Shown here: in pieces, positions 11,810-32,757 of the stretch
Layout: each line of letters begins with the position of its first letter
Numbering within the stretch: position 1 is the stretch's first letter
Origin: Sulfurimonas sp. HSL1-2
GTDB taxonomy: Bacteria > Campylobacterota > Campylobacteria > Campylobacterales > Sulfurimonadaceae
Assembly (NCBI RefSeq): GCF_039645565.1
Contig: NZ_CP147914.1
Coordinates: 2,167,573-2,231,572 of the forward strand
Length of the DNA stretch: 64,000 nt
Direction of reading: 5' to 3'
Position numbers and translations under genes: made by a program
Notes under the pieces: generated by a model
Told to the model about the DNA's origin: nothing
Database searches by the model: none
Seen by the model: only the letters and a program-made list of their open reading frames with translations

Positions 11810-13519
11810 CTACCCTTCGTAGCTGCGTGCGATACGCTGGAAATCCTCCGAACGCGCCATCAGCTCCGTGAAGCTTCCCGTGTCCGTGATCTCGCCGGCT
11901 TTAAAGAAGTAGAGCCTGTCGGCGTGCTCTACCGTCGTGAGGCGGTGGGCGATCATGATGGTGATTTTGTCTTTCGAATAGGATGCCAGGGCCTTCTGGA
12001 TGCGGTATTCGCTCTCATTGTCCAGTGCACTGGTCGCTTCATCGAGGATCAGGACCGATGCGTTCTTGTAGATCGCCCTTGCGATGGCGATACGCTGGCG
12101 CTGGCCGCCCGAAAGGTTGACACCCCCCTCTTCCATCGGGGTATGTATCCCCTCCGGCAATCCCTGGGCAAAGTCGTAGGCGTCGGCCAGTTTCAGCGCC
12201 TCGATGACCCGCGCTTCGTCCAGTTCCAGTCCGTACGCGACGTTTTCGGCAAGGCTGTCCTGCATGACGTAAACGCGCTGGGAGACGACGGCCATCTGCC
12301 TGAGCAGGGAGCGGTGATCATACTCCCGTACATCCCGGCCGTTGATGCGCAGCACCCCTTCGGACGGGTCGTAAAACCGCAACAGCAGGTTGACCAGCGA
12401 GCTCTTCCCGCCCCCGCTGTCGCCGACAAGGGCGATCTGCTCGGAGGGGTGGATTGAGAGCGACACCCCCCGCAATGCGCGCTTCTCCCCGTAATCAAGC
12501 GATACCTGGCTGAATTCAATCTCCCGGATCGGCTCTTCCAGGAGCGCTGTTCCCTCTTCGATCATGCTTTTGCGGTCAAGCACGTTGAAGATCCGTTCGC
12601 TGGCGGCAATGGCGTTCTGGATCTTCCCGTAGATGGAGCTGACGCGCCGCATCGGCTGGAAGGTCAGCCCCACGGCCGTCAGAAACGCCGTGAACTCCCC
12701 TACGGTCATCTGGTTGTTGAAGACCTGCTGCCCGGCGATAAAGATGACGGCGGCCAGCCCCGTGGCCCCCAGGACCTCCATCATCGGGGAAACGATTTCA
12801 TTCGTATAGACCGCCTTCATGTTCAGCTTGAAGAACTTGTTGTTCTCCGCGTCGAAGCGCCCCATCTCGTAGGCTTCGGTCCCGTTGGCCTTGATGATCT
12901 CGGCGTTGTTGAAGACCTCTGTCAGACGGGTGACGACGTCGGCGTTCTTCTCCTGCGAACGGTGCGAAAGGCGGCGCAGGCGCTTGGCGATGAGGATCAG
13001 CGGATAGATCGCCAACGGGAGCACGACCAGGGAGTAGAACGCCAGTTCGGCATTGAGATAGATGACGTAGACGACGAGGCCGACTGCCGTCAGCAGCTCC
13101 CGAACCAGTTCGGGCAGCATGTTTGAGACGAAATACTGCACCCGGTTGATATCGTTGGTGATGCGGCTGATCAGCTCCCCGCTGCGGTTGGCGTGCAGGA
13201 AGGCCATGTCCAGGTGCAGCATATGGTCAAGCAGCTGCGAACGCAGCCGGGTGATGATATGCTGGCCGATATAGTTCATGAATACGGCCTGCAGGTAGCG
13301 CCCGACCGATTTGACGACGTAGATGACGATCATCATCAAAGGGATGTAGTAAAGCATCTGCGGGTCTTTCTCGATGAACATCTTGTCCATCAGCGGCTGC
13401 ATGATCTGTGCCGTCGCCACCGTGGCGAGTACCGTCATAATGATCCCGATGAGGACGATGACGTAGTAGCCTTTATACCCCTTGATATACGGCCAGAACC
13501 GTCGGAACGTCTGTTTCAT
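11810..13519 (-). CDS. msbA: ABC exporter, MsbA-like, fused membrane and ATPase domains
   Basis: 569 residues. The N-terminal half has about six membrane helices with the type I exporter coupling sequence; the C-terminal half is an ATPase with Walker A GDSGGGKSS, signature LSGGQRQRI, Walker B VLILDEATSALD and a switch His (IAHRL). As a half-transporter it should act as a homodimer. Placement beside lipopolysaccharide genes, and its start overlapping the end of the sulfatase-fold gene by 4 bases (ATGA), favour lipid A or LOS precursor flipping. Drug or lipid-linked oligosaccharide export cannot be excluded from sequence alone. Confidence 0.85.
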   Translation of the reverse strand: MKQTFRRFWPYIKGYKGYYVIVLIGIIMTVLATVATAQIMQPLMDKMFIEKDPQMLYYIPLMMIVIYVVKSVGRYLQAVFMNYIGQHIITRLRSQLLDHMLHLDMAFLHANRSGELISRITNDINRVQYFVSNMLPELVRELLTAVGLVVYVIYLNAELAFYSLVVLPLAIYPLILIAKRLRRLSHRSQEKNADVVTRLTEVFNNAEIIKANGTEAYEMGRFDAENNKFFKLNMKAVYTNEIVSPMMEVLGATGLAAVIFIAGQQVFNNQMTVGEFTAFLTAVGLTFQPMRRVSSIYGKIQNAIAASERIFNVLDRKSMIEEGTALLEEPIREIEFSQVSLDYGEKRALRGVSLSIHPSEQIALVGDSGGGKSSLVNLLLRFYDPSEGVLRINGRDVREYDHRSLLRQMAVVSQRVYVMQDSLAENVAYGLELDEARVIEALKLADAYDFAQGLPEGIHTPMEEGGVNLSGGQRQRIAIARAIYKNASVLILDEATSALDNESEYRIQKALASYSKDKITIMIAHRLTTVEHADRLYFFKAGEITDTGSFTELMARSEDFQRIARSYEG

Positions 13520-15522
13520 TCACTCCCCTTTTCCCATACGGGTTTCGCCGCTTTATATGCCTGCCGCACCAGGTACTCGGTCACCGCGAGTGCGGCGTTG
13601 TACTTCTGTTCGCAGGCACGCTGCTGTGCGTTGGCGGCATGGCCGGTTTTGAACGCTCCCCCGGCCGAGACGATGACCCCCGCGTCGTTATAGCCGCAGT
13701 GCAGCGCCGCAGGATCGTAGAGGTCCTCCCCGACGGCTATATAGGCCGTGTTGGAAAGGGTGCGGCCGTAAAGCGTCGGAAAGAGGTCGTTATGCGATGC
13801 ACTGACGTTGCGGTCGAACGGTTCGGCCTTCAGATACGGCGGCAGGTAGAGGTAGAACGGTACCTGCTTGCCTTCCTGCGGGGGGTTGTCGTAATGCATG
13901 ATCCCCTCGATGGTGTTGTTATCCGCGGTGATCGCGACAACGGTCCGTTCCCCCAGATCGGAGGCTTTGACCCCGTCCATGAAACGCCCGGCCATATCGA
14001 GGGCGTACTGGTAGTCCTGCAGCCGCCGGTGCGCCAGCTCCATATCCCCGGTAATGTGCGCCTGCAGTGCTTCCGTGAACTGCAGCGGCTTGGAGTCGTA
14101 GCTTTTGGAGAGGATATAGGGGGGATGGTTGTTCGTCGTCAGAATGTAGACAAACTGCGGCTTTTCCGCCTGCTCCAGCTTGTGCAGCACGAAGTCGTAG
14201 GTGTACCGGTCGTAGACGCCGTAATCATGCTCCTCCGCCCCGGGATAGAGCGCTTCGATGTCGCTTTTCCCCTCGACACGGTCGAACCCCTGGCGTTTGA
14301 AAAAAGTGCCGACGTTACGCCACGAGAGGTCCCCGCCATAGACGAAGTTCGTCTCGTAGCCCGCCGCTTTGTAGACCCTCGCTGCCGCCTGCGGGAATGC
14401 CGTACCCTGGTAACGGCTCTGCCCGTAGGCGATGCTGCCGGGACGGGCGACGACGTTGAGCAGAAACGGTTCCATCGATGCGATCGTCCCATTGGCACCG
14501 GAGATGAAATCGGTAAAGAGGATATCCTCGTCAAAGTGTTTTTTGAGCCGGCGCAGGATATCGAAATCAGGGCTCTGGTACTGCAGGATCGGTGCCCCGA
14601 AACTCTCCACCATGACGACGACGACATGGGGCGGTTTCGCTGCGGCAGCGCTATTGTTCGGCGTCGTACGCCGCAGGTTCGACACGAGATCGGCCGTATT
14701 GATCTGCTCCCGCCCGAGATAGTCCCTGAAGGCCTGCGGAACATTGCCTTTGTAGCCGCTGCGTTTGATCAGGTCGTAGCCGCCGTTTTTGTCTTTGAGA
14801 TACTGTTTGAGCGCTTTCTCGAACGCAAAGACGCCGCTGCGCGGGATGGCGTTTACAAAGACGTCCGTCGAAACCTCCGGGATGTCTTTAAGCAGGGGGA
14901 AAAGCCCGAGGCTGCCCCGCGCACCCACCCCGACCAGCAGCAGCAAAATCAGGTAGACGGCTGCCGCGCTGAGCGGACCGGCCGCCGCGCCCGTCGGGCG
15001 GACATCACGGAAAAAACGGCCGACGAGCCAGACCAGGGCCACGGCGTAAAAAAGTACCAGGCCGATGATCAGGGTGACGTTGTAGTTTTTAAGGCCGATC
15101 TGCACGAGGGCCCAGGTATCGTCGTCGAAGAAGCCGAAAAGCATGATCGTAATGTGCTCGCCAAAGTAGGAGTAGAAGCCGAAATCAATCCCGACCAGGG
15201 CGCTGACGATCAGGTAGGTGAGCGTAAAGTAGCCCCGGAAGAGCCGTCTCAGCCACGGCAGCGGTACGATGGAGCGGGCCAGGTGGTTGAGGATGATCAG
15301 CAGCAACGGAAGGGCTGAGAGGTAGCAGACGAGCACCAGGTCAATACGCAGGCCGAGGAAGAATGCTTCGGTCAGTTCCTGCGCGGGGAAAGACACCTTC
15401 GCCGGGGAGAACTGCCAGAAAAAGAGCAGGCGGAAGAGGGAGAGCAGCCCCAGAAAAAGGAGCTGGAGTTTCACCGTCTGCCGCAGCAGGCCGAAATAGT
15501 ATTGCGTCGGCGATTCGTTCAA
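13516..15522 (-). CDS. LtaS/EptA-type membrane sulfatase-fold transferase
   Basis: 668 residues with about five N-terminal membrane helices (to about residue 210) and a periplasmic sulfatase/alkaline-phosphatase-superfamily domain. Visible metal-site elements are VVVMVESFGAP (first Asp/Glu position), a nucleophile Thr in GANGTIASM, and further His/Asp patches (AITADNN, SASHNDLFPT). Relatives transfer glycerol phosphate or phosphoethanolamine to lipids and glycans. In a Gram-negative LOS locus, phosphoethanolamine or phosphoglycerol decoration of lipid A, core or glycan is most likely. The start is TTG at 15522, with a TATAAT -10 at 15552-15547. It is coupled to the ABC exporter gene. Confidence 0.8.
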   Translation of the reverse strand: MNESPTQYYFGLLRQTVKLQLLFLGLLSLFRLLFFWQFSPAKVSFPAQELTEAFFLGLRIDLVLVCYLSALPLLLIILNHLARSIVPLPWLRRLFRGYFTLTYLIVSALVGIDFGFYSYFGEHITIMLFGFFDDDTWALVQIGLKNYNVTLIIGLVLFYAVALVWLVGRFFRDVRPTGAAAGPLSAAAVYLILLLLVGVGARGSLGLFPLLKDIPEVSTDVFVNAIPRSGVFAFEKALKQYLKDKNGGYDLIKRSGYKGNVPQAFRDYLGREQINTADLVSNLRRTTPNNSAAAAKPPHVVVVMVESFGAPILQYQSPDFDILRRLKKHFDEDILFTDFISGANGTIASMEPFLLNVVARPGSIAYGQSRYQGTAFPQAAARVYKAAGYETNFVYGGDLSWRNVGTFFKRQGFDRVEGKSDIEALYPGAEEHDYGVYDRYTYDFVLHKLEQAEKPQFVYILTTNNHPPYILSKSYDSKPLQFTEALQAHITGDMELAHRRLQDYQYALDMAGRFMDGVKASDLGERTVVAITADNNTIEGIMHYDNPPQEGKQVPFYLYLPPYLKAEPFDRNVSASHNDLFPTLYGRTLSNTAYIAVGEDLYDPAALHCGYNDAGVIVSAGGAFKTGHAANAQQRACEQKYNAALAVTEYLVRQAYKAAKPVWEKGSE

Positions 15523-15546
15523 GCGTCAATACCCTTTTTAAGGCGT

Positions 15547-15577
15547 ATTATACAGTGTTGCACCGCTTTGGTATACT
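15547..15577. promoter_or_regulatory. Divergent promoters between the two sulfatase-fold genes
   Basis: TATAAT on the minus strand (15552-15547) faces the LtaS-like gene and TATACT on the plus strand (15572-15577) faces the YejM-like gene. The two -10 elements are only 19 bases apart, so the polymerases would compete. Confidence 0.5.
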
Positions 15578-15596
15578 TTCACCAAAAAGCGACACT

Positions 15597-17420
15597 ATGA
15601 CACCGCAGCATCTCTCCCTTTTTTTCAAAGCCAATCTGCTCCTGACCGCGCTGCTTTCACTGGCCTTTGCCCTTTTTAACAGCCACTATACCGCATCCGC
15701 CTTCGTTTTCACGCTGGCTGCCCTGCTCTCGACGACGGCGACACTCTACCTCATCTACTGGCTGCTCCTGCGGCTCTTTTTCCGCTTTGCCCGTGTGACG
15801 GCGATCCTGCTGTCTGTACTGTTTTTCCTGACCGATCTGCTGCTCATGACCGACTTCGCCATCTACCGTATCTGGAATTTCCATATCAACGGCATGGTGC
15901 TCAACATCCTCTTTTCCCCGGCCGCCTACGACAGTCTCCAGATGACGGGCCAGGCCGTCGCGATCGTCCTCATTGTCATCGCTGCCCTGGCGGCGCTGCT
16001 GCTGGTCGGACTGAAACGGATCGCTCGGATTCCTGCGCAGAGGGCTTTGCAGGTCAACCGCCGGCTGAACCGCACCCTCGTACCCCTGCTTTTCCTCGTC
16101 ATCCTCGGCGAAAAACTGACCTATGCCGTCGCCAACCTGCACCTCAATGGCGACATCCTCGAACGCACGAAGGTCGTTCCCCTCTACCAGCCGCTGCTGA
16201 TGGACGACCTCCTTATCGGCACGTTCGGGATGGAAAAAGCGCAGAACGAGGGGATCAACGTCAACATCAAGAAGATCACCAACATCCGCTACCCGCTGCA
16301 CCCCATCAGCGTCACCCACCCCAAAACGCCCAATATCTTCATCTTCGGGGTCGATGCCCTCCGCCCCGACGTTGTTAACGACGACAACATGCCGAACATG
16401 GCCGCTTTCAAACGCGACGCCGTCGATTTCGAAAACCACTACAGCGGCGGCAACAATACCCGTTTCGGCTTCTTCTCGATCTTCTACGGCATCAACTCCA
16501 GCTACTGGTTCGGCTTCCTCAATGCCAAAAAGGGGCCGGTACTCTTTGAGACCCTCAAGAAACTGGACTACCAGATCAGCATCGACTCCAGTGTCAACAC
16601 GGCGTGGCCGGAATTCCGGCAGACGATCTTTTACGACGTCCAGGACGCCATCAAGGATGACTACAACAGCAGCAAGACCGAAAACGACCTGGCCACTGTT
16701 AACTATTTCAACGAGTGGCTGGGACGCCAGGAGCTGGGCAAACCGATGTTCGCCTTCGTCTGGCTCGATTCGGTCCACAGCCGCGCCTACGATGACGCAT
16801 TCCGGAAATACACCCCCGACCAGGTCAGCAGCCAGTACCTGACGGCGACCGCCGAGGAGCGGACCGAGCTCTTCAACATGTACAAAAATGCCGCCTACGA
16901 GGTCGATGAGCGCTTTTCGCGCTTCATTGCCGCCCTCAAGGCAAAGGGACTCTACGACGACGCCGTCATCATCGTCCTTTCCGACCACGGGCAGGAGTTC
17001 TTCGAGCACGACCACTACGGCCACAACTCCGCCTACGACCGCGAACAGGTCGGAACGCCGCTCTATATCCGCCTGCCGGGCACGGCGCCGAAGAAGGTGA
17101 CCCGCCTCACCTCGCATCTCGATATCGCCCCGACACTGATGGCGATGCTGGGGGCGGACAACCCATCAAGCGACTATGCACACGGCTACGACCTTTTCGC
17201 CCCGGACTACCACCGTGAATGCGCCTTCGTCGGGAACTGGAACGAAAACGCCATCATCTGCGAAGACGAGACTTTCGTCATCTCCGACGTCCTTGCAAAG
17301 GCATTCAACAACGAGATACGCGATACGAAGAGTTACGAAAAAATCAAACTGAAAGAGAAAAAGCGGATGAACGAGGTCCTGATCAGGAGCCTTGAGGAGA
17401 ACCGGCAGTTCAGCCGGTAA
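15597..17420 (+). CDS. YejM/PbgA-like membrane sulfatase-fold protein
   Basis: 607 residues with about five N-terminal membrane helices (within residues 1-180) and a periplasmic sulfatase-fold domain. Motifs: FIFGVDALRPDVV (metal-binding Asp), GGNNTRFGFFSIFYG (candidate nucleophile Thr), VLSDHGQEFFEHDHYGHNS (metal ligands). Size and layout match the DUF3413/YejM family; in enterobacteria PbgA/YejM senses lipopolysaccharide and controls LpxC stability. Here the active-site residues look intact, so a transferase role is equally possible. The start at 15597 is preceded by a TATACT promoter and only a weak ribosome-binding site. It converges with the acyltransferase gene. Confidence 0.8.
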   Translation: MTPQHLSLFFKANLLLTALLSLAFALFNSHYTASAFVFTLAALLSTTATLYLIYWLLLRLFFRFARVTAILLSVLFFLTDLLLMTDFAIYRIWNFHINGMVLNILFSPAAYDSLQMTGQAVAIVLIVIAALAALLLVGLKRIARIPAQRALQVNRRLNRTLVPLLFLVILGEKLTYAVANLHLNGDILERTKVVPLYQPLLMDDLLIGTFGMEKAQNEGINVNIKKITNIRYPLHPISVTHPKTPNIFIFGVDALRPDVVNDDNMPNMAAFKRDAVDFENHYSGGNNTRFGFFSIFYGINSSYWFGFLNAKKGPVLFETLKKLDYQISIDSSVNTAWPEFRQTIFYDVQDAIKDDYNSSKTENDLATVNYFNEWLGRQELGKPMFAFVWLDSVHSRAYDDAFRKYTPDQVSSQYLTATAEERTELFNMYKNAAYEVDERFSRFIAALKAKGLYDDAVIIVLSDHGQEFFEHDHYGHNSAYDREQVGTPLYIRLPGTAPKKVTRLTSHLDIAPTLMAMLGADNPSSDYAHGYDLFAPDYHRECAFVGNWNENAIICEDETFVISDVLAKAFNNEIRDTKSYEKIKLKEKKRMNEVLIRSLEENRQFSR

Positions 17421-20133: not shown

Positions 20134-20888
20134 CTGCTCTCCCCGGCTTTTTCCTGCAGTTCCAGCAGCATGACATATTTCATGTACGTGTGGTAGCCTG
20201 AATTGATGGAGACCGTCCAGCCCGGGATGCCGTGGAACATTCCCCCCTTCATCACGAGCTTTTTGAAGCAGTTGGAAAAGCCGTGTGTGAAAGGGTCATA
20301 CCAGGATGCCCGCTTCCCTTTCTCGTAGAGCATCTTTGCCCCCCGCGCGGCAAACTTCTCCGTCGTGCGCATGAGGTGGGCATAATCATCAAAGGAGTAG
20401 TGCAGCATGTCCGCATCCAGCTCTTTGACGTTTGATGTTTCGACCCGCGCATGTCCTATCGCCTGCGAATAGCCGCACTTCCTCCGGTCGTAAAGCCGGG
20501 CGACGCGGTCGGGGTACCAGACCTTGATGAAGTGCTTCCCTACGAAGGTCTTGCGCTTGAATGAAAAGGCGTCATAGGGGGTCTGATCGAGGTCAAGTGC
20601 CGCAATCGCCGCGACGGCATTCGCGTCCAGACGCTCATCCGCATCGATGCTGAGGATCCAGTCATTCGTCGCCAGCGGGGCGCCGAAGGCTTTCTGGGGA
20701 CCGTCACCGAGGTAGGGCTGCACCACGACTTTCGCACCGAGGCTTTCGGCGATCTCGCGGGTACGGTCGCTGCTCTGCGAATCGACGACAAGCACCTCAT
20801 CGCACACGGGCAGCACCGAACGGATTACCGCTTCAATGTTGTTTTCCTCGTTGAGTGTTATAATATTGGCCGTAATCTGTTTTTTCAT
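20130..20888 (-). CDS. GT2 glycosyltransferase, WaaE/KdtX-like
   Basis: 252 residues of the GT-A fold, family 2. The N-terminus ITANIITLNEENNIEAVI and LVVDSQSSDRT bind the nucleotide, and WILSIDADERL carries the DxD metal site. The closest relatives are the LOS inner-core beta-glucosyltransferases (WaaE/KdtX). It is the first gene of a coupled minus-strand unit (GT2, GT56, aminotransferase, acyltransferase) and diverges from the kinase gene. The sugar specificity cannot be determined. Confidence 0.82.
   Translation of the reverse strand: MKKQITANIITLNEENNIEAVIRSVLPVCDEVLVVDSQSSDRTREIAESLGAKVVVQPYLGDGPQKAFGAPLATNDWILSIDADERLDANAVAAIAALDLDQTPYDAFSFKRKTFVGKHFIKVWYPDRVARLYDRRKCGYSQAIGHARVETSNVKELDADMLHYSFDDYAHLMRTTEKFAARGAKMLYEKGKRASWYDPFTHGFSNCFKKLVMKGGMFHGIPGWTVSINSGYHTYMKYVMLLELQEKAGESR
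20859..20864 (+). promoter_or_regulatory. -10 element for the Kdo-kinase-like gene
   Basis: TATAAT inside the start of the divergent GT2 gene; predicted transcript start about 20871, leader about 31 bases. Confidence 0.4.
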
Positions 20889-20901
20889 CGTGTCCCCGAA
20901 A

Positions 20902-21705
20902 ATGATGAAAATCTTAACCGAATCACTATTACACCGTCATAAAAAGGGGTCTCGGTTGCCTGTTAACTACACCATCCATTCCGACTATACCGACTTTGAA
21001 AACGAGCTGCTCGCGGTCAAGGAGCAGTTTGCCTCTTCCAGTGAAAGCATCCACAAAGCGCGCAACGAACTGCGCATCGTCCCCCTGCACGGCATGCAGA
21101 CCGTCATCAAGGCGTTCAAGGTCCCCCACCTGCTCAACCGTTTCGTCTATGCCTATCTACGCGATTCGAAAGCGAAGAAGTCCTACAACAACGCCGTCCG
21201 GCTGCAGGCACTGGATGTCCCGACCCCCCAGCCCATCGGCTATATCGAATTCTTCGAGCGCGGGCTCTTCGCGCAAAGCTTCTTCATCTCGAAGTACGAG
21301 CCCTACGATTTTACGATCCGGGAGGTACTGCATCATGAGGTAAAGGATAAGGATGTGGAGGCGATCCTCCGTGCCTTTACGGCCTTTACCTGCAGCCTCC
21401 ACGAAAAAGGGGTCTGGCACGAGGATTACTCCCCCGGGAATATCCTGATACGTAAAGAAAACGGGGCCTACACCTTTATGCTCGTCGATATCAACCGCAT
21501 GCAGTTCCGCCCCATCGGCCCTCTTGAAGGGCTGAAAAACTTCAGCAAGCTCTGGGCTCAGCCCGATGACCTCGCCCTGATGGGGAGGGTCTACGCCGAA
21601 CTGCGCGGCATCGACGAGGCCCTGGCGCTGAAAGCCATCGCCGCTTTCGACCGCAAGACCAAAGCCGTCGTCAACTTCAAAAAGCGCCTCAAAGGGAAGA
21701 AGTAG
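20902..21705 (+). CDS. LPS core kinase, KdkA/WaaP-like
   Basis: 267 residues of the eukaryotic-like kinase superfamily found in lipopolysaccharide modification. The catalytic loop is HEDYSPGNIL (about residue 175), and the metal-binding Asp is in MLVDINRM. The candidate ATP-anchoring Lys is in VIKAFKV. KdkA phosphorylates Kdo and WaaP phosphorylates heptose; both act on nascent core at the cytoplasmic face. The ATG at 20902 (or 20905) is used because the longer frame overlaps the divergent GT2 gene; the ribosome-binding site is poor in either case. It converges with the GT90 gene. Confidence 0.8.
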   Translation: MMKILTESLLHRHKKGSRLPVNYTIHSDYTDFENELLAVKEQFASSSESIHKARNELRIVPLHGMQTVIKAFKVPHLLNRFVYAYLRDSKAKKSYNNAVRLQALDVPTPQPIGYIEFFERGLFAQSFFISKYEPYDFTIREVLHHEVKDKDVEAILRAFTAFTCSLHEKGVWHEDYSPGNILIRKENGAYTFMLVDINRMQFRPIGPLEGLKNFSKLWAQPDDLALMGRVYAELRGIDEALALKAIAAFDRKTKAVVNFKKRLKGKK

Positions 21706-23933: not shown

Positions 23934-24947
23934 TCAGCAGCACAGCAGCTGCTCGACGTTCGCCACGACCTCCGTAACGGGAATCGTATCAATCGGAGCG
24001 CCGGCCTCGCCGATCAGGGCAACGGCCCTGTCATGTTTGTGAAACCACTCATCGATCGTCCCTTGCGCCGTGTATGACTCGTCGCTGTAAAGAATGACAC
24101 TCCGCTTTTTGTAGACCTGTGCAATGTGGGAAGGACCGCAATCGTTCGCGATGACGCACTTTGCGCGTTTCACTTTTTCGACAAGAGGCCGGATCTCCAG
24201 ATTGTCATAGACCGCAAAACCGCTTTGCTCAATTGCCTGCCGCATCCCTTTTTCTTTGGCGCCCAGCACAAAAGCAATTTTGAGAACGGGGTGGCGTGCA
24301 GAGAGCACCCGCGCTGCATCGAGATAGTTTGCAAGCGGCCAGATCTTGTGTTCACCGCCGGCACCGGGCATGATCAGGATCTCATTCCCCTCGCTAAAAT
24401 GTGTCTCTTCCATCGCCCTGTCGAGCAGACGCAGATAGTTCTGCGCCCGGTAAACGCCTGTCTCATGCGTCCGTGTCCGTGTAAAGAGCTTCGTGCTTAT
24501 CGGGGAGGCAAATCCTATTTTCGTCTGAACACTCCCGAGGCCGACAAGGGTATTGACGAAACCCGACTGGCGCCGGAGATTAAGGGTGATCTCCGGTGCC
24601 AGCGCAAAGTAGCGTGATGCGAGTTCCAATTTGCCCGATTCAAGGATCACCTCATCCGCCAACCCGAGTTCTTTTAACAGGTTGGAGATCTTGTGCTTCG
24701 AAACAAGATGGATCTTCCGGCCCGGATAGACCTTTCGTAACGCTTCCAGCAGCGGGATATGGCAGATCTGCGCACCGAAAAAATCCCGGTTCTGCAGAAA
24801 AACCACGATATTTTTCGCCCGCGAAACGGATTGACGCTGTTTTCCGTCAGCCGGACGGTACGCCTGTGTTACGCTCTCAGCCGTCGGTGCCGTGAAGAAT
24901 TTGAAAGGTTCCCGGAAACCGTTCCGGGCGAAAGGGGGGAAGTGCAT
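23934..24947 (-). CDS. GT9 (ADP-heptose:LPS heptosyltransferase family) protein
   Basis: About 337 residues. The N-terminal Rossmann domain (IVVFLQNRDFFGAQICHIP) and the C-terminal ILIMPGAGGEHKIWPLANYL and CVIANDCGPSHIAQVY motifs mark the GT9 family. It is more distant from WaaC/WaaF than the gene at 29732, so the sugar may be heptose or another. I prefer the start at 24947 (MHFPPF), with AGGAG and GAGG upstream; an earlier ATG at 25019 has its purine run directly abutting the codon. A 35-residue disordered-looking stretch lies before the first strand in either form. Confidence 0.78.
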   Translation of the reverse strand: MHFPPFARNGFREPFKFFTAPTAESVTQAYRPADGKQRQSVSRAKNIVVFLQNRDFFGAQICHIPLLEALRKVYPGRKIHLVSKHKISNLLKELGLADEVILESGKLELASRYFALAPEITLNLRRQSGFVNTLVGLGSVQTKIGFASPISTKLFTRTRTHETGVYRAQNYLRLLDRAMEETHFSEGNEILIMPGAGGEHKIWPLANYLDAARVLSARHPVLKIAFVLGAKEKGMRQAIEQSGFAVYDNLEIRPLVEKVKRAKCVIANDCGPSHIAQVYKKRSVILYSDESYTAQGTIDEWFHKHDRAVALIGEAGAPIDTIPVTEVVANVEQLLCC

Positions 24948-25069
24948 TGCCTCTGCTCCTGCCCTGCCCATAACGGCGGGACATTTTAGAATAGGCAATA
25001 CTACAGGAGCAAAGGACATGCTCCCGTCACGAAACGGTTACGCTTCGGTAACGCTCATCACGCCGTATC

Positions 25070-27007
25070 TTAGGCGTTTTCCGCTTGACCCAGTGTTTTC
25101 ACCAGGGTGTCGAAATTCTGCTGCAGACGCGCCAGCTGCCGACGGATACGCATGCGCGAGAGCAGACGGACGTTGCGGTAGAGCCAGAACTTCGGCCCGC
25201 AGTGCCTTGAGCCGAGACCGTCAACAATGATCAGTTTTCCCCCCTCCGCACTTTGCCGGTAGATGATATTGCTCAGTGCGACATCGGCGAAGAGGATGGA
25301 ATTCTCCAGCAGATAGGCCCCCAGCGCTTTCAACATCTGACGCCCCTCCTGCTCGGTAACGGCACCCGAACGGAGCGCTTCGTCAAAGGTGACAGGCGCC
25401 GTACCGTCCGCATTGGTGATACGGTCGAACATCAATCCTTTCCCCTCGGACGTTTCGATCCATCCGCGGCATTTGGGGAGATGATGGAAAGAGACTTCCC
25501 ACCACCGCAGGTTCCGGTAGTATACCGCCTCGATACGGTTCTGCTCCCTTCCCTTGACCCCTTTGCGGTTGACCTTGATGACCTTCGACGGGTCTTCGGG
25601 GTGGACATAGCACAACCGTTCATTCCCGCTGCCCAGGAGCTGGGCCCGGCTCAGATCAAGCTGCTGCGCGTTGCTTTTTTTTTTGACGCCGACGCTTTCC
25701 ATGGCCTGCATCAGCGTCTGCGAACAGTGCTCCAGAGGACGGGAGGTATTCAGGTAAAGGTAACGCGCCGACGGTTTTTCCAGGTAGAGGCGGAACATCA
25801 GCGTCCGGTAGCGATCGATATCTTCCGCTGAAAGCTCCTCCTTCCGGGCATGGATCACGGAAGCGGGGGCGTCAAGCTGAACGAGCAGCCCCGGCGTCGG
25901 CAACAGACCGAGCCACCGCTGCCATCCCTCCCGCAGTCCGCTATCATGGCCTTCGAAACGGCTGTTTTTCAGCAGAAAGTCAAAATAGTACCGGTCGGCG
26001 AGCAGGTAGCCTTTCAGCTGTGTCTGCAGCCACAGCAGCGGATAGCGGAGCAGTGCGATCCCCAGTACCACGCCGCCGCAATAGTCGTCGACCTGGTTCT
26101 TCTCCGGCTTCATCCCCATCGCTTTTATCGTCCGCAGGCGCATCACGGGCAGGGCCGCTTTGTAGAGCAGCGACTTCCGGAACATCTTTTTGAAGCGGTA
26201 ATACGAGGTCTTGCCTGTGGCGCCGCATGCCGCTTCAATCAGTGTGGTCTTGCCGACGCCGTCAGGTCCGATGAACGGGATCAGCCTGCGGTTGGTGCGT
26301 TTTTTCATCCGGAAACGGTGCCACTCTTCAAAGAAGCGTGCGCGTTTCTCCTCCCAATAGCGTGTTTTATCACCTCGAGCCCGCAGAATGCCCAGCGCCA
26401 TCAGTTCGCGGTTCGCCTCATGGGCGACGGCCTTGATGCCCTGCGACGGCAATCTCCGGAAGAGTGCCGTGATAACGTCCTCTCCACGCGCTTCCGCTTC
26501 CTGCAGATAATAGGCAACGCGCCGCGCCACCTCTTCCGCATCGAGGCGCTTGTTTTTGGTGTAGAGGTGCGAAAGGTAGTAGAGGGCTTCTATGGGAAAA
26601 GGAAGTGTCATTCTTCCCGCTTCCACTGCACCGAGCATATGTGCGAGATCCTCCCAGAATATCCGCTTGAGCGATGCGCCTTCGGGGTCATGGACCTGCA
26701 GGTGGTTCCAGATCTCCAGCGTAATGAACGCGGGCGATTCCGTATCGTAAAGAAGCAGTTTCAGTTTCCCGCTCTTCGTCTGGTCAATACCGAACGCGAT
26801 AGTGGCTTCGCTCGCCATCTCAAACAGCAGTGTCAGGAAAGCTTTGCGCTGCTCCTGCGGAAGAATAAAGTCATAATCACCGTGAAATGCGTACTCCTCG
26901 CTGATGGGACGGTGACGCAGCTGGACCAGCGTCAGCCCCTGGCGTCTCACCTCATCCAGCACTTCCCGGAACAGTTGCAAGGTACTATTTTCACTCACAG
27001 CACTCAC
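25070..27007 (-). CDS. Three-domain fusion: nucleotidyltransferase-like / thymidylate-kinase-like / YrbL-like kinase
   Basis: 645 residues. Residues 1-230 look like a nucleotidyltransferase-fold domain (GDYDFIL near 43-49 with a DxD pair) and a helical tail. Residues 240-435 are a P-loop kinase: Walker A GPDGVGKTT at 247-255, then LLADRYYFD near 337-343 and LLVQLDAP, as in dTMP kinases. Residues 455-630 resemble the YrbL/PhoP-regulated kinase family: LLGSGNERLCYV glycine loop, VIKVNRK lysine, ILFADVALSNIIY catalytic loop and LIIVDGLGS metal site. It lies 26 bases downstream of the UDP-glucose dehydrogenase gene inside the LOS locus. Its substrate is unknown; phosphorylation of a core sugar is inferred. 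A GTG start (27007, or 26998) is used. Confidence 0.75.
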   Translation of the reverse strand: MSAVSENSTLQLFREVLDEVRRQGLTLVQLRHRPISEEYAFHGDYDFILPQEQRKAFLTLLFEMASEATIAFGIDQTKSGKLKLLLYDTESPAFITLEIWNHLQVHDPEGASLKRIFWEDLAHMLGAVEAGRMTLPFPIEALYYLSHLYTKNKRLDAEEVARRVAYYLQEAEARGEDVITALFRRLPSQGIKAVAHEANRELMALGILRARGDKTRYWEEKRARFFEEWHRFRMKKRTNRRLIPFIGPDGVGKTTLIEAACGATGKTSYYRFKKMFRKSLLYKAALPVMRLRTIKAMGMKPEKNQVDDYCGGVVLGIALLRYPLLWLQTQLKGYLLADRYYFDFLLKNSRFEGHDSGLREGWQRWLGLLPTPGLLVQLDAPASVIHARKEELSAEDIDRYRTLMFRLYLEKPSARYLYLNTSRPLEHCSQTLMQAMESVGVKKKSNAQQLDLSRAQLLGSGNERLCYVHPEDPSKVIKVNRKGVKGREQNRIEAVYYRNLRWWEVSFHHLPKCRGWIETSEGKGLMFDRITNADGTAPVTFDEALRSGAVTEQEGRQMLKALGAYLLENSILFADVALSNIIYRQSAEGGKLIIVDGLGSRHCGPKFWLYRNVRLLSRMRIRRQLARLQQNFDTLVKTLGQAENA

Positions 27008-27033: not shown

Positions 27034-28356
27034 TTAAACACCAATCTGGAAGTATTCGAAGCCGAGGCGCGCCATGCGCTCTTTGTCGAACTGGTTGCGG
27101 CCGTCGAAGAAGACGGGGCTTTTGAGGCGCTTGTCGATCTCGTCGAAGTCGGGGCTGCGGAACTCCTGCCACTCCGTGACGAGGATCAGCGCGTCCGCGT
27201 CTGTAAGGGCGTCGTATTTGCTGTCGACGTATTCGACGCTTTCATTGCCCTTGAGGTAGTGGCTCTCCGCCTCGTGGCGGGCTTTGGGATCGTACGCTTT
27301 GATCTTTGCGCCGCGTGTTGTCAGGGCATTGATGATCGTGATGGCGGAGGCTTCGCGCATGTCGTCCGTCTCCGGTTTGAACGCCAGGCCCCAGATGCCG
27401 AAGGTGAGGCCCGAGAGATCTTCGCCGAAACGCTTGATCACCTTGTTCGCAATGACCATTTTCTGGTCATAGTTCACGGCCTCGACGGCGTCGAGGATGC
27501 GCGGGGTATAGCCGAAATCCTTGGCCGTTTTGGCGAGTGCCTGGACATCCTTGGGGAAACAGCTGCCGCCGTAGCCGCAGCCCGGGTAGATGAAGCTGTA
27601 GCCGATGCGGCCGTCGCTCCCGATACCGTGGCGCACCTTGTTGACGTCCGCGCCGACGCGTTCGCAGATGTTGGCCATCTCGTTCATGAAGCTGATCTTC
27701 GTCGCGAGCATCGCGTTCGCGGCGTACTTGGTCATCTCGGCGCTTTTGATATCCATCCCGATGAAGCGGTCGCTCTTCTTCATGAACGGCGCATAGAGGT
27801 CATGCATCACCTGCATCGCCTGCTCGCTCTCGGCGCCGATGACGACGCGGTCAGGGTGCATGAAGTCCTCGATGGCCGCCCCCTCTTTGAGGAACTCCGG
27901 GTTGGAGACAACGTCAAAATCGATGTCGGCGCCACGTTTATCCAGCTCCGCCTGGATCGCGGCTTTGACCTTCTCCGCCGTCCCGACGGGCACCGTTGAC
28001 TTGTCGACGACGACCATGTAGTGCTGCATATGCTCGCCGATGCTCTTGGCGACGGCCAGGACGTACTGCAGGTCCGCGCTGCCGTCTTCTCCCATCGGGG
28101 TACCGACGGCGATAAAGGCGACATCCGTCGAGGCGATCGCCGCTCTGATATCGGTCGTGAACGTCAGCGTCCCCTTCTCATGGTTCTCCAGTACCATCGT
28201 CTCCAGACCCGGTTCGTAGATCGGAATGATCCCCTCGCGCAGTTTCGCGATCTTCGCCTCATCGATATCCACACAGGTGACGCTGTTGCCCATCTGTGCA
28301 AAACAGGTCCCGCTGACCAGTCCGACGTAGCCCGTTCCGATGACGGAGATTTTCAT
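27034..28356 (-). CDS. ugd: UDP-glucose 6-dehydrogenase
   Basis: 440 residues. The NAD-binding N-terminus is [16 protein letters not shown], the catalytic Cys lies in [17 protein letters not shown] (near residue 260), and the C-terminal domain has the [20 protein letters not shown] signature. It oxidises UDP-glucose to UDP-glucuronate, a precursor for uronic acids, or for 4-amino-arabinose where the Arn pathway exists. None of the Arn genes are in view, so glucuronate in LOS or capsule is the simplest reading. AAGGA precedes the ATG. It heads a minus-strand unit with the three-domain fusion gene. Confidence 0.95.
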
Positions 28357-28472: not shown

Positions 28473-29735
28473 ATGAAACCGCCGTACGCCTGGGATTTCC
28501 ACTCCGACCAGCCCTATCAGCTCAAAGACCGTGCCCTCAAACGCCGCCTGCGCAAAGCGCAGCGCGCTTCCCTTGTCAAAACGGCGCTCTCCGGCCTGCT
28601 CTGGCTGCCGCTGGCGCTGCTGGCCATGCCTTTCCTGCGCCGCCGCCCGGTCGAAGCCTCCCGTTTTACGGGCCTTATCATCGACCCCCTCCGTGAGCCC
28701 GAAGCCACACTCGGTGCCGTCACCGAGCTTGATGTCAACGAGCTGCTGATCCGGGTGAAACTCTGGGAACCCGACGCGCTGGAAAAGATCACGGCCTTTG
28801 CCCGGAACCTCGAAGGAAGACGGCTGCTCTTCGTGCTGATGCAGGACCGCGAACACATTGAGGATGCAGCACTCCGCCGCCGGTCGCTCGAGCGCACCTT
28901 TGCCGCCCTTGCCCCCTTCGGCGACCGCTTCCAGATCGGCACGACCATCAACCGTGCGAAATGGGGATTCGCGAGCGTCAACGAATACCTGGAGTTCTTC
29001 AAAACGGCGCAGCAGCTCCGCGACGAGCGTTACCCGGAGCTGAAACTCATCGGCCCCGGTGTCATCGATTTTGAATACCACTTCGCCGCCCACGCCTTTT
29101 TCAACCTCCGCGGCATCCGCTTCGACGCCGTAGCCGCCCTCCTTTACGTCGACCGCCGCGGGGCCCCGGAAAACACCCAGACGGGGTGCGACCTCCCCTG
29201 CAAGATCAATTTCCTCTCCTCACTGGTAATGCTCTCGCCCCGGGCGAAATACCCCCTCTACCTCACCGAGACGAACTGGCCGCTGAGCGGAACGGCCCCC
29301 TACGCGCCCACCAGCGAAAAGGAGTGCGTCGACGGGGAGACCTACGCCTCGTACATGGTGCGGTACTACCTGCTCGCCCTGGCGACACAGCAGGTCGCCA
29401 CCGTCTACTGGCACCAGCTTGCCGCCCCGGGCTACGGTCTTGTCGATACCCGGGAGGGGTGGCATAAACGCCCCGGGTTTAAGGCATTCAAGACCATGGC
29501 GTCTCTGTTGAAAGAGGCGCGGCATATCGCCCTGCAGCAGCGCCGTGACCGCTTCGAGATGCTGCTGCAGCGCCCCGAGGGCCTGCTGCGGATCTTCTGG
29601 ACGAACGGGACCGAGTATACCCAGCACTTTGCCGAGCCCCGCCACTTTATCGGCCGTGACGGCAATACCTTTACGACGGATGCCCTGACCGTCTCCGGCA
29701 GCCCGGTCTATCTGATTGAAAAGGACGAAGCGTGA
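28473..29735 (+). CDS. Membrane-anchored glycoside-hydrolase-like protein
   Basis: 420 residues: a basic N-terminus, one hydrophobic segment (about residues 37-55), then a probable TIM-barrel domain. RFQIGTTINRAKWG and, late in the barrel, YPLYLTETNWPLSG look like the acid/base and nucleophile (Glu) strands of clan GH-A enzymes such as GH39/GH5, but the match is partial and I cannot name a family. LALATQQVATVYWHQLA adds an aromatic-rich active-site strand. It overlaps the waaF start (GTGA), so it is co-expressed with a heptosyltransferase, which suggests a role in LOS or glycan trimming. The transcript appears leaderless. Confidence 0.65.
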   Translation: MKPPYAWDFHSDQPYQLKDRALKRRLRKAQRASLVKTALSGLLWLPLALLAMPFLRRRPVEASRFTGLIIDPLREPEATLGAVTELDVNELLIRVKLWEPDALEKITAFARNLEGRRLLFVLMQDREHIEDAALRRRSLERTFAALAPFGDRFQIGTTINRAKWGFASVNEYLEFFKTAQQLRDERYPELKLIGPGVIDFEYHFAAHAFFNLRGIRFDAVAALLYVDRRGAPENTQTGCDLPCKINFLSSLVMLSPRAKYPLYLTETNWPLSGTAPYAPTSEKECVDGETYASYMVRYYLLALATQQVATVYWHQLAAPGYGLVDTREGWHKRPGFKAFKTMASLLKEARHIALQQRRDRFEMLLQRPEGLLRIFWTNGTEYTQHFAEPRHFIGRDGNTFTTDALTVSGSPVYLIEKDEA

Positions 29736-30724: not shown

Positions 30725-31327
30725 TTAGAAGCGGAACTTGACCCCGGCGAACCAGGCCTCGTTGAAGGTGAAATCCCCCCCGGGAAGGTCGAAGTCCGTA
30801 TCGATCTTGCGATACCCCGCCGTCACCGCGGCGCGTTCGATGATCCGGATATCGAGCGACAGGTCATACTCCAGGTAGTTCTTCGCATCCTGCCAGGCAA
30901 GCACCTGCGGCGCGTAGTAAAGATCGGCGCCGACGACAAAGGGAATCGCCAGGTTCAGCGGCAGCGTATAACGTGCAAAGAGTCCGAGCGGCATGGCGTA
31001 ATAGTCATACCCTTCAATAGAGGTGTAAACGAGTTTTGCCCCGAGCCCGAGCTTGAGCGCGCGGTTGGCATCCAGGTGCTCCCCGACGGCAAAGTGCAGG
31101 TCGACAAGATCGTGATCCTTGTCGCGGAGTTCGTCGCTGTGATGGTAGGAGCCGTGCAGATAGCGTGCACCGACAAAGACGGTGTCCGGATCGACGGCAT
31201 CGTTGAACTGCCCCATATCAAGATCGAGTTTCAGATTGAGATCGTAGTTGTTCAGGTTCAGTTCCGCTTCGTGCATCGCGAACAGCGAGCAGCCCAGTGC
31301 CAACGTGGCGACCAAAGTTTTCAGCAT
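30725..31327 (-). CDS. YfaZ-like outer-membrane beta-barrel protein
   Basis: 200 residues: a signal peptide (MLKTLVATLALGCSLFAM), alternating beta strands with many aromatic girdle residues, and a C-terminal strand ending in Phe (AGVKFRF), as expected of an outer-membrane barrel inserted by BamA. The overall pattern resembles the YfaZ family of unknown function. It begins 7 bases inside the 3' end of hldE, so it is probably co-transcribed with the heptose genes. Confidence 0.78.
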   Translation of the reverse strand: MLKTLVATLALGCSLFAMHEAELNLNNYDLNLKLDLDMGQFNDAVDPDTVFVGARYLHGSYHHSDELRDKDHDLVDLHFAVGEHLDANRALKLGLGAKLVYTSIEGYDYYAMPLGLFARYTLPLNLAIPFVVGADLYYAPQVLAWQDAKNYLEYDLSLDIRIIERAAVTAGYRKIDTDFDLPGGDFTFNEAWFAGVKFRF

Positions 31328-32757
31328 GTTGTTCCCTCCTGGATTTTGGCTATGGTCTTCGTCGTACTTTTGCCTTCGACGAAATCGACGAGTTTGAGCT
31401 CACCTGCAAATTCGGTTCCGACGACGGCTTTGCCTTCGTAATCCCCCCCTTTGACAAGGACGTCGGGGCGGAGCATCTTGATCAGCTCGTAGGGCGTATC
31501 GTCACCGAACTTGACGACATAGTCCACCGACTCAAGCGCGGCGAGGATATAGGCGCGGTCATTTTCGCTGTTGACCGGGCGCGACGGCCCTTTGAGCGCA
31601 CGGACGGAAGCGTCGGAATTGAGCCCGACGATCAGGACGTCGCCGAAGCTCTTGGCCACCTGCAGGTACTTGACGTGGCCGACGTGCAGGATGTCGAAAC
31701 AGCCGTTGGTGAAGACGATGCGTTTGCCCCCCGCACGGCAGCGGTTGACGATCCGGTCGATCTCTTCGAAGCTCTTGATGTGCGCATCGGAGCTGCTCTG
31801 GTGCAGCATCGCCTCGTACTCTTCGATCTCGTCCAGGGTCACCGTCGCCGAACCGATCTTGCCGACGACGACGCCGGCGGCAAGGTTCGCGAAGCGGGCC
31901 GCGTCGTCGATGCTGAGGCCCGAACTGAGGCCGAACGCGATGGAGGCGATCACGGTATCGCCCGCCCCCGTCACGTCGTAGACCTCCTGCGCCACGGTCG
32001 GGAAACGCTTGAGCTTCTCGTCGAAGATCGCGATCCCGTCCTCGGAGAGGGTGATCATGGAGCGGTCGAGGTCACATTCGTTCTTGAGCCACAGCAGCGC
32101 GGCCTGAAGGCTTTCACTGTCCGTGATCTCGATGCCGGTCGCCTCGATCGCCTCTTTCTTGTTGGGGGTCAGCAGGTGCGCCCCGCGGTACTTCGAGTAG
32201 TCGCGCCCCTTAGGATCGACGAGCACCTTCTTGCCCCCCCGGCGTGCGCGGGAAATAATCCCCTGGGCCAGCGCCGGGGTCAGGACCCCCTTGCCGTAGT
32301 CGGAGAGGATAATGATGTCATAGAGGAAAAGGTCCTTCTCCACCGCGGCGAGGATTTTCGCCTCGGAGCCCTCCGTAATGGCGTCCTTGGACTCCTTGTC
32401 GTAACGGAGGATCTGCTGGTTCGCGGCGATGACGCGGCTCTTTTTGCTCGTCTTGCGGCCCGCCTGCGTCACCAGTCCCTCCGTCTTCACCCCGATGCTC
32501 TTGAGCATCAGCGTCAGCTCTTTGCCGTTGGCGTCGTCCCCGATGGCCGAGGCGACGCTGACGGAGGCGCCCAGGGCGATCAGGTTGTTGATGACGTTGC
32601 CCGCCCCGCCCAGTACCGTCGTCTCGTTGGCGACGTCGACGACCTGCACCGGTGCCTCGGGGGAGATACGTTCCGCCCGGCCCCAGAGGTAGTGGTCGAT
32701 CATCAGATCGCCGATAACGAGAATATTGGGACGGCTGTTACGCAGGATCGGGATCAT
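31321..32757 (-). CDS. hldE: Bifunctional heptose 7-phosphate kinase / heptose 1-phosphate adenylyltransferase
   Basis: 478 residues. The N-terminal PfkB-type kinase domain (to about 320) contains GGAGNVINNLIALGA and the catalytic DVTGAGDTVIASIAFGL. The C-terminal nucleotidyltransferase domain begins with IVFTNGCFDILHVGHVKYL (the HxGH motif). It makes ADP-D-glycero-beta-D-manno-heptose for the LOS core. The start overlaps the stop of hldD by 4 bases (ATGA). The isomerase (gmhA) and phosphatase (gmhB) of the pathway are not in the window. Confidence 0.96.
   Translation of the reverse strand: MIPILRNSRPNILVIGDLMIDHYLWGRAERISPEAPVQVVDVANETTVLGGAGNVINNLIALGASVSVASAIGDDANGKELTLMLKSIGVKTEGLVTQAGRKTSKKSRVIAANQQILRYDKESKDAITEGSEAKILAAVEKDLFLYDIIILSDYGKGVLTPALAQGIISRARRGGKKVLVDPKGRDYSKYRGAHLLTPNKKEAIEATGIEITDSESLQAALLWLKNECDLDRSMITLSEDGIAIFDEKLKRFPTVAQEVYDVTGAGDTVIASIAFGLSSGLSIDDAARFANLAAGVVVGKIGSATVTLDEIEEYEAMLHQSSSDAHIKSFEEIDRIVNRCRAGGKRIVFTNGCFDILHVGHVKYLQVAKSFGDVLIVGLNSDASVRALKGPSRPVNSENDRAYILAALESVDYVVKFGDDTPYELIKMLRPDVLVKGGDYEGKAVVGTEFAGELKLVDFVEGKSTTKTIAKIQEGTTC

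Follow-up and report, generated by a model that had tools for sequence, protein, structure and literature searches.

Multi-domain enzymes of glycan phosphotransfer are already known as a kind. WbdD is a kinase-methyltransferase that first places a phosphate on an O-antigen sugar and afterwards modifies this phosphate (PMC3482155), and the O7 terminator of Klebsiella pneumoniae is a kinase-methyltransferase chain terminator in polysaccharide assembly (PMC11231755). In a lasso peptide system, the kinase PsmK and the nucleotidyltransferase PsmN act on a serine of the peptide, which is phosphorylated and receives hexoses (PMC9266682). The YrbL-PhoP_reg family (PF10707) is placed in the PKinase clan of Pfam (PMC9758233), and the function of E. 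coli YrbL has been reported as unknown (PMC5775216).

A protein of Sulfurimonas sp. HSL1-2, encoded in a 64,000-nucleotide stretch of contig NZ_CP147914.1 referred to here as the window, is composed of known folds, namely a nucleotidyltransferase (NT) fold, a thymidylate kinase (TMK)-like P-loop kinase and a YrbL-type protein-kinase-like (PKL) domain. As in WbdD and the O7 terminator, a PKL-type kinase is fused to a second enzyme that would modify a glycan phosphate, but the partners here are TMK-like and NT domains, there is no methyltransferase by Pfam and no coiled coil, and the gene lies in an LOS-core locus. The PsmK/PsmN pair is similar by description, in that a kinase and an annotated nucleotidyltransferase act in turn on one acceptor, but there the acceptor is a peptide and the kinase is a different one. 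The C-terminal domain is a member of PF10707 by its Pfam score; however, E. coli YrbL is a single domain with Ser at the position of D575, whereas the window protein has the domain fused to two other enzymes and is encoded in an LOS locus.

An earlier note, made from the sequence of the window, had regarded this architecture as apparently undescribed. For the fusion this may stand, as no description of an NT/TMK/kinase triad or fusion was found in the open-access literature, the coverage of which is limited and includes few subscription journals. The same limited literature gave only an Arcobacter butzleri annotation for YrbL in LOS or for the NT/TMK/kinase combination. The NT and TMK-like pair by itself belongs to an existing, widespread family. 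The novelty therefore lies less in the single fusion than in the repeated pairing with a protein-kinase-like phosphotransferase.

The fusion gene and its LOS locus

The three-domain open reading frame proposed in the earlier note was confirmed at 25070..27007, with the addition that it lies on the minus strand. It is intact, starts with GTG and encodes 645 amino acids, its GC content is even throughout the domains, and its assignment draws on the translation, an ortholog in G006 and dN/dS values. The UDP-glucose dehydrogenase gene ugd (27034..28356, minus strand) lies 26 bp upstream and a GT9 heptosyltransferase-family gene (23934..25019, minus strand) 50 bp downstream, both assigned by Pfam. 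Given these short spacings on a common strand, ugd, the fusion gene and the GT9 gene are likely to form one operon. A separate Kdo/WaaP-family (KdkA-like) kinase is encoded on the plus strand at 20836..21705 (PF06293, E 3.8e-6, above the cut-off). Altogether the locus contains, by Pfam, ugd, two GT9 heptosyltransferase-family genes, GT4, GT90 and the Kdo/WaaP-family kinase, in agreement with the LOS setting proposed previously from ugd, heptose genes and a KdkA-like kinase.

The window also encodes, at 28473-29735, a 420-aa protein without a Pfam or NCBIfam match. The protein is conserved in two families of Campylobacterota, where its gene lies in LOS loci next to YrbL genes and genes of the heptosyltransferase family.

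Domain structure of the fusion protein

The Pfam search of the fusion protein gave a YrbL-PhoP_reg match at residues 450-631 (E 9.5e-38) with a score of 130.2 bits against a cut-off of 31.5, covering profile positions 1-183 of 185. The first 440 residues gave no Pfam match above the cut-off, and NCBIfam agrees. Thus, of the three domains named in the earlier note, the domain search returned only the YrbL-like one, NT and Thymidylate_kin being below the cut-off in the fusion protein. The two N-terminal assignments were nevertheless borne out by predicted structure and by comparing profiles with those of a family in which some members do score as thymidylate kinases above the Pfam cut-off. The loops which had been described as intact, namely Walker A, the glycine-rich loop and the catalytic loop, are all present in the sequence.

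The YrbL-family domain occupies residues about 448-640 (25088..25666, minus strand). In the full-length model (pLDDT 80, pTM 0.60) residues 448-638 resemble the Rio, PRPK and NleH kinases (Z about 12-13). The full kinase set is retained: the glycine-rich loop GSGNERLCY (459-467), the beta-3 lysine K478, the catalytic loop at 571-583 (25259..25297, minus strand; alignment of 15 YrbL domains) with D575 and N580 in ADVALSN (574-580), and the metal-binding D596 in DGLG (596-599). In sequence and in the model, the domain has the features expected of an active protein-kinase-like fold.

The P-loop kinase domain occupies residues about 235-442 (25682..26305, minus strand), as assigned by structure alignment, hhalign and the profile of the wider-family alignment, A5. 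Residues 239-442 of the full-length model align to thymidylate and adenylate kinases with Z of about 12-13 and rmsd 3-4. The Walker A motif GPDGVGKTT is at 247-255 (26243..26269, minus strand), its core being invariant in alignment A1, and is followed by a DRY motif (338-340) and a lid-like RKEEL (388-392). These motifs are conserved as far as the family f9 described below. With its Walker A and DRY motifs, the domain is predicted to be an NMP-kinase/thymidylate-kinase-like fold. It shares fold, Walker A and DRY with thymidylate kinase but is below Pfam significance (the fusion protein itself has no PF02223 match) and has a basic RFKKxFR stretch. The acceptor pocket differs in this respect from that of thymidylate kinase, which means that transfer onto a phosphate is proposed by analogy only. 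A housekeeping thymidylate kinase can be rejected, as the genome's own tmk sits elsewhere.

The NT domain comprises residues 1-230 (26318..27007, minus strand). No significant sequence match was obtained for it in Pfam or NCBIfam. The AF2 model of these residues (pLDDT 86.5, pTM 0.82) gave as best PDB match the putative nucleotidyltransferase JHP933 of Helicobacter pylori (4ok0, Z 10.0 over 162 residues), followed by ANT(2'')-Ia (4wqk, Z 9.2 over 155 residues) and then by MenT toxins and LnuA. A Pol-beta-type nucleotidyltransferase fold is therefore predicted. The candidate catalytic residues D44 and D46 are in a GDYDF motif at 43-47 (26867..26881, minus strand), invariant in alignments A1 and A4, and the third acid, E98, is within LEIW and is likewise invariant; the corresponding DxD and D are also invariant in A5. 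Nucleotidyltransferases usually carry an hG[GS] motif. An atypical LRxR stretch, LRHRP, is found at this position and, because it replaces the usual motif, the role of the domain could be one of binding only. The domain is thus like ANT(2'')-Ia, JHP933 and NTP_transf_5 (PF14907) in predicted fold, DxD and third acid, but differs from them in having no significant sequence match and no canonical hG[GS]. One relative with the NT-TMK arrangement gave a weak PF14907 score.

The presence of MenT toxins and of the AbiEii-like JHP933 among the structural matches could be read as indicating a toxin-antitoxin or defence protein, with a MenT/AbiEii-like NT domain joined to a kinase. However, ANT(2'') scores equally well, PADLOC gives only a sub-significant match to the P-loop domain (E 0.05), and every relative sits in a polysaccharide or LOS cluster. 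Such a role is considered very improbable, and a defence or toxin system was rejected on the PADLOC result. A viral origin was also rejected, no relative being found in a scan of viral contigs and PHROGs giving only a weak P-loop match.

Fused and split forms in Campylobacterota

In a set of 100 relatives, only the genome of the window (G000) and that of a second species (G006) had the full fusion, the G006 copy being 92% identical over its length. For this single pair the Nei-Gojobori dN/dS was 0.156 overall, and by domain 0.18 and 0.13 for the two halves of NT, 0.12 for the P-loop domain and 0.075 for YrbL. These values indicate purifying selection on all three domains. With an ortholog of 92% identity and a low dN/dS, a chance open reading frame and an assembly or frameshift artefact can both be rejected. 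A third species of the same genus, represented by a draft MAG (G003), has a broken copy (L054:9983-12072) with a frameshift and a deletion, the deletion removing the YrbL part, so that the P-loop part runs into the GT9 gene. Within eight congeneric genomes, the GT9 gene at 23934..25019 is found only in the three which have the fusion gene or the broken copy.

A split form, with an NT and P-loop protein of 438-459 aa and a YrbL protein of 187-214 aa, is present in other genera of the family, namely in G031, G057, G008 and a MAG (L055). Taking the longest ORF start, the split genes overlap by up to 55 bp or are separated by at most 1 bp, and in one further locus (L057) the YrbL gene is 2 kb from the NT and P-loop gene. 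The YrbL partners in G008 and L055 do not have the canonical catalytic Asp. Contrary to the possibility that homologues would be separate, unrelated genes outside an LOS context, they are split into genes that abut and mostly overlap, within clusters for LOS or polysaccharide. One scan of genome contigs gave matches confined to Campylobacterota. Of 30 matches in the phylum with E near 1e-4, many were short P-loop stretches only and were disregarded.

In seven genomes of a second family, f9, a P-loop gene with a short head adjoins YrbL in four and is fused to it in three, with a GT9 gene and the homologue of 28473-29735 alongside in all seven. These short heads share homology with the NT domain, yet GDYDF, LEIW and the helical part are missing from them. 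The NT head is thus vestigial in f9, and the NT step is dispensable in some lineages. In the tree, the two kinds of fusion fall on separate branches and are interspersed with unfused relatives. A single inheritance of the fusion is thereby rejected, and f9 has joined P-loop and YrbL independently.

These results bear on a soluble precursor pathway, in which the domains, as a kinase, a second kinase and a nucleotidyltransferase in turn, would make a nucleotide-activated donor from a sugar or alditol phosphate and a separate transferase, such as the GT9 protein, would attach it. Activated-sugar synthesis usually employs a kinase and a nucleotidyltransferase, of which hldE (31321-32757) is an annotated example within the window, and the GT9 gene co-varies with the fusion gene in the eight congeneric genomes. 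On the other hand, the NT fold is like that of antibiotic and RNA transferases (ANT, MenT) and unlike the Rossmann-like sugar-nucleotidyltransferases, and the pathway would break in f9, where the NT head is lost yet P-loop and YrbL are kept. Because f9 dispenses with the NT residues, this is the weaker explanation and is thought unlikely.

A regulatory or structural role, in which some domains are pseudoenzymes binding nucleotide or glycan and controlling chain length or the assembly of LOS enzymes, would accommodate the vestigial head in f9, the departure of E. coli YrbL and of the G008 and L055 partners from the canonical catalytic Asp, and the fusion of YrbL elsewhere to the 420-aa non-kinase LOS protein. 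It does not sit well with the window protein itself, where each catalytic residue examined is intact and the selection on all domains is strongly purifying, and it is judged to have only a small chance of being correct.

A wider NT-TMK family and its kinase partner

Comparison by hhalign of the NT and P-loop part of the fusion with a family of NT-TMK proteins, encoded on plasmids of Agrobacterium, Leisingera and Hymenobacter and by two other Campylobacterota, gave a probability of 99.3 and E 2e-20 over 394 columns spanning both domains. The A5 profile of this wider family matches solved thymidylate kinases in the PDB (E 2e-7), and the relatives in L034, L035, L092 and L096 pass the Pfam cut-off for Thymidylate_kin. 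The two domains of the window protein are thus assigned, from sequence comparison, to a wider family found in the polysaccharide loci of three phyla, Pseudomonadota, Bacteroidota and Campylobacterota, the survey beyond Campylobacterota being of plasmid records only. All relatives are located in polysaccharide or LOS clusters.

A PKL-type gene lies directly beside the NT-TMK gene in G122, G387 and Legionella, where the relative has a head of about 125 aa without domain assignment; in two Leisingera strains it is at a distance of one gene, and in Agrobacterium of four genes. On the Hymenobacter plasmid pHsw1 (L094:6186-8657), an 823-aa 'hypothetical protein' has the order PKL kinase (with HGDFTPWN), NT, TMK. 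Its kinase part has no Pfam match but can be aligned to the phosphotransferases of Agrobacterium and Leisingera, for which APH is matched. The Hymenobacter protein is an independent full fusion, with another order and another kinase subfamily. Over all inspected loci, the PKL kinase was fused to NT-TMK in 6, adjacent in 11, nearby in 4 and absent in 0, this being a raw count without a null in which many loci are related and from which L058 (contig end) and G003 (broken) had to be left as unassessable. The converse fails, as many YrbL genes have no P-loop neighbour.

The neighbouring and fused domains point to an enzyme team adding phosphate-based groups to lipid-linked sugars of the outer membrane. 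Tentatively, and with doubt exceeding belief, this may be extended to a stepwise glycan-tailoring system of several phyla, in which PKL, TMK-like and NT activities work on one acceptor so that LOS or exopolysaccharide would receive a substituent of diphosphate or nucleotidyl/phosphodiester type. The window and Hymenobacter proteins would be two independent full fusions of this system.

Proposed function

Modification of a core sugar or lipid, as proposed in the earlier note, is the best reading of the locus, and a multi-step modification is plausible. Specifically, the fusion protein may be a cytosolic LOS-core tailoring enzyme with three normally co-operating activities that add a phosphate-based substituent, a proposal to which we give about equal belief and doubt. 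The PKL domain is intact and shares its fold with kinases of LPS and glycans, the P-loop motifs align to NMP kinases while a separate housekeeping tmk exists, and the NT fold has DxD and a third acid. A joint action is argued for by the abutting or overlapping split genes, by the independent P-loop-YrbL fusions in two families and by the PKL-NT-TMK fusion of Hymenobacter, and a GT9 gene adjoins in both families. WbdD, the O7 terminator and PsmK/PsmN serve as precedents for the halves of the scheme. Counted against the proposal are the YrbL partners without a catalytic Asp and the loss of the gene in a related species, and the loss of the NT catalytic residues in f9 argues against NT catalysis being essential to the P-loop and PKL unit.

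In this scheme the YrbL-type domain would phosphorylate a core sugar at a hydroxyl, the sugar probably being heptose or one attached to heptose. By analogy with dTMP to dTDP, the TMK-like domain would extend the resulting phosphomonoester, or else a small precursor that is already phosphorylated, by another phosphate. The NT domain, where intact, would then cap or activate the product with a nucleotidyl group or one like it. The end product would be an anionic substituent of phosphodiester or diphosphate type, the order of steps and the substrates being those we infer. For YrbL and the 'hypothetical' NT-TMK proteins, the fusions speak for joint action on surface glycans. Orphan proteins of the three phyla Campylobacterota, Pseudomonadota and Bacteroidota thereby gain a testable assignment, glycan phosphotransfer, with one soluble polypeptide as test object.

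Possible exchange of modules in sister species

The sister genomes G004 and G007 have a ugd of 95% identity but neither the fusion gene nor its GT9 gene. Sulfotransferase-family genes are found between GT4 and ugd instead (L111 and L112, about 13369-17000), the Pfam assignment being from the G007 copies, the second of which is barely above the cut-off. This suggests that LOS modification modules may be exchanged between sister species. Replacement of a phosphotransfer module by sulfotransferases fits, but does not prove, the addition of an anionic group by the fusion protein.

Other YrbL proteins

In E. coli K-12 YrbL (L099:4453-5085) the catalytic loop reads MSLKPQN, with Ser at the catalytic Asp position, and DNIG is found for DGLG; this protein may be inactive or atypical. 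In a second class of YrbL (L020:9769-10332, L055:1511-2077, L059, L061) a loop NYGMMPKN replaces the D..N pair, and some of these genes adjoin NT-TMK genes. A further YrbL fusion, in G298 and G180 (L079:397-2046, L080:397-2046), is joined to a homologue of the protein encoded at 28473-29735 and adjoins a GT9 gene.
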